Shown here: positions 12,169-13,156 of the stretch, piece by piece
Layout: every line of letters begins with the position of its first letter
Position numbering within the stretch: position 1 is the first letter of the stretch
Assembly (NCBI GenBank): GCA_016933155.1
Contig: JAFGBM010000007.1
Coordinates: 124,001-188,000 of the forward strand
DNA from: Demequinaceae bacterium
GTDB taxonomy: Bacteria > Actinomycetota > Actinomycetes > Actinomycetales > Demequinaceae
Length of the DNA stretch: 64,000 nucleotides
Direction of reading: 5' to 3'
Notes under the pieces: generated by a model
The model's input: only the letters and a program-made list of their open reading frames with translations
Told to the model about the DNA's origin: nothing
The model's database searches: none
Translations under genes and position numbers: made by a program

Positions 12169-12211
12169 GTCGGGCTGACAGGATTTGAACCTGCGACCCC
12201 TTGACCCCCAG
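12169..12211 (-). repeat. Perfect 43-bp copy of the tRNA-Pro(GGG) 3' half (candidate attachment site)
   Basis: Identical to positions 13082-13124. It covers the 3' acceptor strand, T-arm, variable region and anticodon strand through the GGG anticodon loop, then diverges abruptly. It lacks the encoded CCA that the intact gene has. Direct repeats of a tRNA 3' half are classic products of tyrosine-recombinase integration. Confidence 0.85.
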
Positions 12212-12222
12212 GTGACGGCACC

Positions 12223-12290
12223 GCGTCCACCACCGTCCACCTCCGTCTCTCCAGGAAAGACCCGACCCCTGGAGACGATCCTGGACACTT
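12223..12290. repeat. Cluster of short direct and inverted repeats beside the tRNA 3' copy
   Basis: CGTCCACC occurs at 12224-12231 and again at 12234-12241 (the latter as CGTCCACC within CCGTCCACCTC). TCTCCAGG (12248-12255) pairs with CCTGGAGA (12268-12275), and TGGAC occurs at about 12282. Such GTCCA/TGGAC clusters can be recombinase arm-type sites. No experiment or homologue supports this here. Confidence 0.3.
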
Positions 12291-12385
12291 GTAGACGGGA
12301 AGGAACAGCGGTCAGAACGGCGATCACAACCCGTGCGTGCTAGCGTGGCAGCGATCGTGTCGGTGTGGATCGGAGGGGGCCTGGA

Positions 12386-13069
12386 ATGAAGGTTTCACGG
12401 ACTGTCGCTCTTGCCGGACTAGGGATGGTCGTCCTCTCCGGGTGCTCGAGTGAGGCCGAAGTCGTTTACGTATCTGCATCCCCCAGTTCGCCGACGGCCG
12501 ACGCGAGCCCTTCGGCTTCTTCGGAGCACGGACCCTCGCCAGAACCCGAAGCAACCGCTGAAGACCAGGTATATGAGCCATTCTGGGGCTCCGGCAATTC
12601 TGTCGGGGAATATATCCAGAACGAGGCTGGCACCTATGGCTCGGGTTGCGTCCCTGGTTCTTCGACTTCTCTGCCCGATGGTGTCTGGTTCGGTGACGCA
12701 GAGAGCTGGGGGCCAACGTCAGTGACGTTCGACTTGGCCTGTTATTGGGGGGACAACAAGTGGAGTGTCATGGAGGAGGTGCAGGTGAACTGTCTCGATG
12801 ACGGCTCAGAAGCCCTAGACCGGCACTGTGCCACGAACGACAACTCAACGACCAGGACGATACCGGTCGCCTCCGATGCATGGGTTGTGCCCGGACGAGA
12901 ATATTCATGGGTTCTCGAGAATCGGACGGTCGTTGAAGGAAGCGGCGACCCCGAGGATTGTGGTGGGGGATGGGACGCATCTGCGTGGGAACTGATCCAA
13001 GGGTGGGTGTGGATATACATCAACGATGGGGTTGTCACCGCGGTTGAGATTCCCTACATGGGGTGCTAG
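12386..13069 (+). CDS. Orphan secreted lipoprotein, Cys-rich
   Basis: A 227-residue protein with signal peptide and lipobox LSGC, a Ser/Pro/Ala-rich linker and an acidic globular domain with seven Cys. Several are in disulphide-like contexts (TYGSGCVPG, LACYWG, VNCLDD, RHCATND, EDCGGG, terminal YMGC). The ATG at 12386 has a GGAGGG ribosome-binding site. It is the only gene inside the 913-bp interval between the two perfect tRNA-Pro repeats, so it is probably cargo of a decayed integrated element. I do not recognise the family. It is not obviously related to the three lipoproteins near 47 kb. Confidence 0.7.
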   Translation: MKVSRTVALAGLGMVVLSGCSSEAEVVYVSASPSSPTADASPSASSEHGPSPEPEATAEDQVYEPFWGSGNSVGEYIQNEAGTYGSGCVPGSSTSLPDGVWFGDAESWGPTSVTFDLACYWGDNKWSVMEEVQVNCLDDGSEALDRHCATNDNSTTRTIPVASDAWVVPGREYSWVLENRTVVEGSGDPEDCGGGWDASAWELIQGWVWIYINDGVVTAVEIPYMGC

Positions 13070-13081
13070 ATATCACTCGTG

Positions 13082-13124
13082 GTCGGGCTGACAGGATTTG
13101 AACCTGCGACCCCTTGACCCCCAG
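13082..13124 (-). repeat. Second copy of the 43-bp direct repeat, inside tRNA-Pro
   Basis: This is the 3' part of the intact tRNA-Pro plus one flanking base, identical to 12169-12211. On the minus strand no terminator follows the tRNA here, only the end of the lipoprotein gene. The natural terminator therefore seems to have been displaced to the other copy. Confidence 0.85.
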
Positions 13125-13156
13125 TCAAGTGCGCTACCAAACTGCGCCACAGCCCG
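13083..13156 (-). tRNA. tRNA-Pro (anticodon GGG)
   Basis: A 74-nt cloverleaf. The acceptor strand CGGGCTG pairs with CAGCCCG; the D-stem is GCGC/GCGC; the anticodon arm is CTTGA-CTGGGGG-TCAAG (anticodon GGG); the T-arm is GCAGG-TTCAAAT-CCTGT; the discriminator is A. The following three bases on the minus strand are CCA, so the 3' end is encoded. It reads proline CCC codons. Its 3' half is the repeated sequence described above. Confidence 0.95.

Follow-up and report, generated by a model that had tools for sequence, protein, structure and literature searches.

A 913-bp unit behind the tRNA-Pro(GGG) gene of a Demequinaceae genome is very probably the integrase-less remnant of a Giles-type tRNA-Pro integration, resembling a cis-mobilizable element (CIME), in which one intact lipoprotein gene has been kept. 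The unit lies in a 64,000-nucleotide stretch of DNA, the whole of which we call the window, from a 1.9-Mb genome of 15 contigs in the family of Demequina. The finding is a fossil of a known kind, well explained and not something new, and it illustrates clearly, on a small scale, how tRNA genes preserve a record of earlier integrations. The features of the window and the corresponding intervals in relatives are listed in Table 1.

Table 1. Features of the window, and lengths of comparable intervals in other Demequinaceae.
Feature	Position or length	Strand	Remarks
Third, degenerate tRNA-Pro(GGG) 3' fragment	6609-6640	minus	30/32 nt; E about 1e-8
Possible older tandem unit	6641-12168		2-nitropropane-dioxygenase/PfaD-like ORF, MFS transporter, adenylate-forming-enzyme-like ORF, GNAT
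Bidirectional terminator	12137-12162		perfect 11-bp stem; 6 nt past the truncated copy
Second 43-nt core copy (attR)	12169-12211	minus	without CCA; interpreted as the displaced original tRNA 3' half
attR flank inside the element and lipoprotein upstream region	12212-12385		holds CGTCCACC repeats
Lipoprotein gene, only gene of the element	12386-13069	plus	227 aa; lipobox LSGC; points toward the tRNA
Intact tRNA-Pro(GGG)	13080-13156	minus	encoded CCA at 13080-13082; directly behind der; ARAGORN and Rfam
43-nt att core within the intact tRNA gene (attL)	13082-13124	minus	identical to the Giles attP core
der	13185-14657	minus	neighbour of tRNA-Pro(GGG)
Intervals with a second tRNA-Pro 3' copy	G001 1.3-1.4 kb, G040 2.0 kb, G051 3.2 kb, G039 5.3 kb		
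Intervals with a second tRNA-Pro 3' copy	G019 7.8 kb, G042 8.1 kb, G017 9.2 kb, G016 10.1 kb		
Intervals with a second tRNA-Pro 3' copy	G046 11.0 kb, G006 13.1 kb, G045 16.2 kb, G048 about 34 kb		

The 3' half of tRNA-Pro(GGG) is repeated around one gene

Both ARAGORN and Rfam called the tRNA gene on the minus strand (13080/13083-13156), and the Rfam scan gave no other RNA match. The initial annotation had described a perfect 43-bp direct repeat of this tRNA 913 bp away, and the repeat is indeed exact, with 100% identity over 43 nt and 913 bp from start to start. The repeat is not a chance match, since its E value in a search within the window was about 3e-20. It covers tRNA positions 33-75, which run from the anticodon loop through the discriminator and include the first C of the encoded CCA. 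The complete CCA is encoded at the intact gene and not at the truncated copy, a difference that had been noted before and that the sequence bears out. We interpreted the 3' half of the intact tRNA as the half contributed by the element.

The DNA between the two cores measures 870 bp and consists mostly of the lipoprotein gene. The intact tRNA is followed at once by the end of this gene, as reported earlier; the last base of its stop codon is 13069, which leaves 10 nt to the 3' end of the tRNA. The GC content of the insert was 59.8%, against 65.1 +/- 2.3% in segments of the same size, placing it among the lowest 1.1%.

The tRNA terminator is displaced

A perfect bidirectional terminator soon after the truncated copy was confirmed (Table 1), with a folding energy of -29.9 kcal/mol and z = -6.7. 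We then looked for a hairpin after the intact tRNA of the window and found none, the best candidate reaching -5.7 kcal/mol; the same test at the truncated copy gave -26.2 kcal/mol. For comparison, we searched the 46 other family genomes for the complete tRNA and read 42 loci that carry the full gene. A hairpin terminator directly followed the intact tRNA in 41 of these 42 loci, a count that includes some sites occupied by elements that bring their own terminator. The 41 hairpins ranged from -17 to -41 kcal/mol, started within about 55 nt of the tRNA and were followed by a T-rich tail. At the remaining locus (L105) a hairpin is visible in the sequence, but without the T-rich tail that the test used.

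The tRNA of the window is therefore alone in having no hairpin behind it, which supports both an insertion and the loss of the tRNA-proximal end of the inserted element. Other occupied tRNA-Pro sites keep a terminator after the tRNA, whereas the site in the window does not. We interpreted the terminator beyond the truncated copy as the original terminator of the tRNA, shifted away from the intact gene by 913 bp. The initial annotation had proposed that a segment entered between the tRNA and its terminator and rebuilt the tRNA from the incoming att sequence, and had pointed to the tRNA-Pro(GGG) loci of relatives as the place to check this. The adjoining terminator in 41 of 42 relatives agrees with that proposal, and the interval of the window was absent from all 42 loci. 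Because no terminator follows the tRNA and the lipoprotein stop is only 10 nt away, the data suggest that the tRNA-proximal end of the element was deleted.

tRNA-Pro(GGG) is an integration hotspot in Demequinaceae

A second 3' copy of the tRNA lies downstream on the same strand in 13 of 43 Demequinaceae, the window included, and tRNA-Pro(GGG) is thus an integration hotspot in the family. The interval of the window is the shortest seen. Across 396 genomes of the order we found 21 partial copies, among which that of the window was the only one with a full gene within about 1.5 kb.

The copies fall into two classes by the position at which the match to the tRNA begins. Nine start at position 32-33 (the window, G001, G006, G017, G019, G039, G040, G042 and G045), and four at position 41-44 (G016, G046, G048 and G051). 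The left boundary in the window is position 33, the same as in the eight other copies of its class (32 in one case). A tyrosine integrase is encoded inside four intervals: in G042, G017 and G045 it adjoins the tRNA, and in G019 the distal copy. The repeat in the window has the boundary found in the relatives that carry an integrase at tRNA-Pro. Two genomes, G019 (L116) and G039 (L138), have several tRNA 3' fragments (two to three) one after another behind tRNA-Pro, with boundaries at 33, 41 and 43-44. Repeated integration at one tRNA gene, called accretion in the literature (PMC5704250), therefore occurs in the family, and the fragment boundaries suggest that two integrase specificities may act on the same tRNA gene. 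At the G039 locus, a partial 5' tRNA-Pro copy (positions 1-48) was also seen about 90 nt before the full gene.

Replication slippage or unequal exchange might also produce such a repeat, by duplicating part of the tRNA in tandem; the lipoprotein gene would then have entered afterwards. tRNA fragments can duplicate in general, and the 5' copy beside the G039 gene is a case in point. Nonetheless, we rejected this explanation as very improbable, because the vicinity of the truncated copy contains no 5' half and because the left boundary, at an anticodon-loop position, is common to eight other genomes and to phages, integrase-bearing elements among them. The encoded CCA also differs between the two copies, as expected of an attP-derived end. 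Still harder to credit is that the lipoprotein gene arrived on a cassette, by homologous recombination or transformation, through exchange between tRNA 3' halves and without an integrase. The 43 bp of identity could act as homology, but relatives carry integrases beside the same repeat at tRNA-Pro, and the mechanism is not needed. The locus instead has the features of a tyrosine-integrase product: a 3'-half repeat flanking an insert, a tRNA rebuilt at one end, an integrase-type boundary, and an empty-site arrangement in relatives, which is read from other species sampled with one genome each.

The repeat is the attachment core of mycobacteriophage Giles

The 43 nt proved to be the attP core of mycobacteriophage Giles and its relatives (21 records at 99% or more). 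In Giles the core adjoins the integrase gene gp29. In M. smegmatis, Giles vectors insert close to the 3' end of tRNA-Pro (PMC11551767), and it is common among mycobacteriophages for a core of 30-45 bp to extend as far as the anticodon loop (PMC10865867). The same 43-mer was found in 12 viral stretches, where, full tRNA genes aside, the match to the tRNA ended 0-4 nt left of position 33. The integrases of G042, G019 and G017 were 40%, 44% and 29% identical to Giles Int, respectively.

Giles (cluster Q) and the unit in the window share the tRNA, a 43-nt core identical at 100%, a core start in the anticodon loop and the rebuilding of the tRNA at one junction. However, the unit measures 0.9 kb and has neither integrase nor excise, both of which are present in Giles, a temperate phage of 53.7 kb. 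Giles-type integrase and phage genes were sought in the interval of the window and none was found, leaving the att core as the sole shared feature. The 8.1-kb element of G042 uses the same tRNA, core and left boundary as the window, but its genes include one for a Giles-like integrase and one for a major head protein, and it resembles a phage satellite. At this locus (L097, contig C1, 1636000-1651500), we observed the Giles-like integrase, an ATPase-like protein and the major head protein (phrog_10, E = 1e-41). The element is not large enough to be a complete phage; with these genes it has the appearance of a capsid-carrying phage satellite. With these results, the range of the Giles-type tRNA-Pro attachment site extends beyond mycobacteria to the Demequinaceae, in which the tRNA is a frequently used hotspot.

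The integrase is missing and the element appears decayed

The initial annotation had found no integrase in the element. Our search gave the same answer: the interval encodes none, and a search for a remnant with four integrases yielded no credible match. The interval thus keeps no integrase scrap that would name the parent directly. Elsewhere in the genome of the window there are four integrase-family matches, none at the tRNA-Pro site, and the best two resemble XerC/XerD. Two integrase-family matches lie about 24 kb from tRNA-Pro, beside a DNA methyltransferase and a restriction-like helicase (L139, G000:C9:110688-112900); this cluster is probably a separate defence island.

Partly reduced elements were found at the same tRNA elsewhere. 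In Cellulomonas sp. URHD0024 the interval measures 1.49 kb and the second core is a 95% copy; about 160 residues of an integrase C-terminal region adjoin the tRNA (E = 4e-28). This mini-element with a truncated integrase shows a decay path at tRNA-Pro. In G040 (2.0 kb), a weak integrase-like stretch lies at the corresponding place (three queries, each with E about 0.1), together with an ATPase gene. The series from 8 kb with an integrase, through 1.5 kb with half of one, to 0.9 kb with none indicates how a single cargo gene can remain.

We also considered that the unit might still be mobile: it would be a compact non-autonomous element carrying the lipoprotein gene as cargo, and a phage resident in the same cell and using the same site would supply the integrase that excises and moves it in trans. 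The two cores are identical, so that a Giles-type integrase could in principle recombine both; integrases of tRNA-Pro specificity circulate in the family, and G001 has a second, unrelated one-lipoprotein interval at tRNA-Pro. Yet the lipoprotein stop, 10 nt from the tRNA, leaves no room for the usual flank and terminator, the genome of the window has no integrase at its tRNA-Pro site, and searches of the family, viral contigs and plasmids turned up no second copy of the interval. We regard such continued mobility as unlikely. Decay is favored over mobilization in trans because the flank and terminator that other occupied sites keep appear to have been lost on the tRNA-proximal side and because Cellulomonas has a half-decayed integrase at the same place.

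Decay would have followed an ordinary integration. The incoming DNA, a phage or something phage-like equipped with a tyrosine integrase of the Giles type, would have entered the 3' half of tRNA-Pro(GGG), its attP supplying a new tRNA 3' half including the CCA. The original 3' half and terminator, now attR, would have ended up at the opposite end. The element would then have lost nearly everything, including the integrase and the tRNA-proximal flank, leaving a 0.9-kb CIME-like remnant in which a single intact lipoprotein gene is flanked by two intact att cores. We infer this order of events, as well as the identity of the parent.

In keeping with a CIME, the unit has intact attL and attR cores and lacks integration and transfer genes; an autonomous prophage, ICE or IME would encode an integrase, and the unit does not. 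It resembles a CIME, as defined in PMC5704250, or a decayed ICE or IME at a tRNA gene, in that two att sites are kept, the integration genes are lost and other att scars stand in tandem. It differs in that its parent was probably phage-like and not a known ICE, that it holds one gene, that one flank is apparently deleted, and that its mobility is only putative. The tandem ssrA islands of Dehalococcoides, many of which lack an integrase (PMC3146451), are likewise direct-repeat-bounded units in series behind one RNA gene, although they involve a serine recombinase, the tmRNA gene, a 20-bp repeat and larger cargo.

The lipoprotein gene is intact and belongs to a family

The gene starts with ATG, and a GTG at 12365 is a possible alternative. 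The lipoprotein had been called an orphan, which proved wrong: four related proteins are encoded in the same genome, and 22 other Demequinaceae genomes contain homologues (E 0.01 or better). The homologues examined sit elsewhere in their genomes and not at tRNA-Pro. In a 19-sequence alignment, the lipoprotein of the window keeps nine of nine invariant columns, two cysteines among them, and the gene therefore does not look like a pseudogene. We infer that selection retained it.

The protein is closest to proteins of the host family and not to known phage proteins. It had no Pfam or PHROGs match, and searches with protein and DNA in phages, viral contigs, genome contigs and plasmids returned nothing. 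The predicted structure had a pLDDT of 63, and no function could be read from the fold because a PDB fold search gave no significant match. A probable core copy of the family adjoins ApbE and a ferric-reductase-like protein, neighbors that hint at a possible role in extracytoplasmic redox chemistry. Upstream of the gene, the CGTCCACC repeats at 12212-12300 could be arm-type sites.

The same-genus genome G001 (L095, contig C59) has a tRNA-Pro interval at 2211-3528 that also holds a single lipoprotein gene, in the same orientation as in the window, and an eroded core copy (40/43). This lipoprotein is THAP4-like and heme-binding (PF08768, E = 2e-21), and the two intervals showed no significant DNA similarity apart from the tRNA. 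Because both genomes of the genus hold such units with unrelated lipoproteins, tRNA-Pro(GGG) might be imagined as a recurrent landing place in the genus for one-gene lipoprotein cassettes, phage-derived and either trimmed or built so, kept for a benefit to the cell such as the exclusion of further phages, and possibly exchanged by passing integrases. We consider this quite unlikely; with n = 2 the recurrence may be a coincidence, and a scan for other lipoprotein genes at the ends of relatives' elements found nothing convincing. Should lipoprotein-only remnants turn out to recur, the implication would be selection for surface proteins of phage origin.

A third tRNA fragment marks a possible older unit

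A third, degenerate fragment of the tRNA, missed in the initial annotation, lies 5.5 kb beyond the second copy. It is possibly the att scar of an older integration, and the presence of this eroded fragment suggests tandem accretion. The stretch bounded by this fragment and the second copy contains four genes (Table 1). Its GNAT gene was not found in the 46 other genomes of the family, and a search of 18 other Demequinaceae for the adenylate-forming-like gene was likewise negative. For the first gene, G001 contains a 67% relative, where it lies in a different setting, by dxs. An older integration here is plausible, and the case is weaker than that for the 913-bp unit. Upstream of the gene at 6714 we noticed a palindrome, AACCTACGAACACGTAGGTT, at 6660-6690, and a similar one precedes its G001 relative (L263); the palindrome is possibly a conserved repressor operator.
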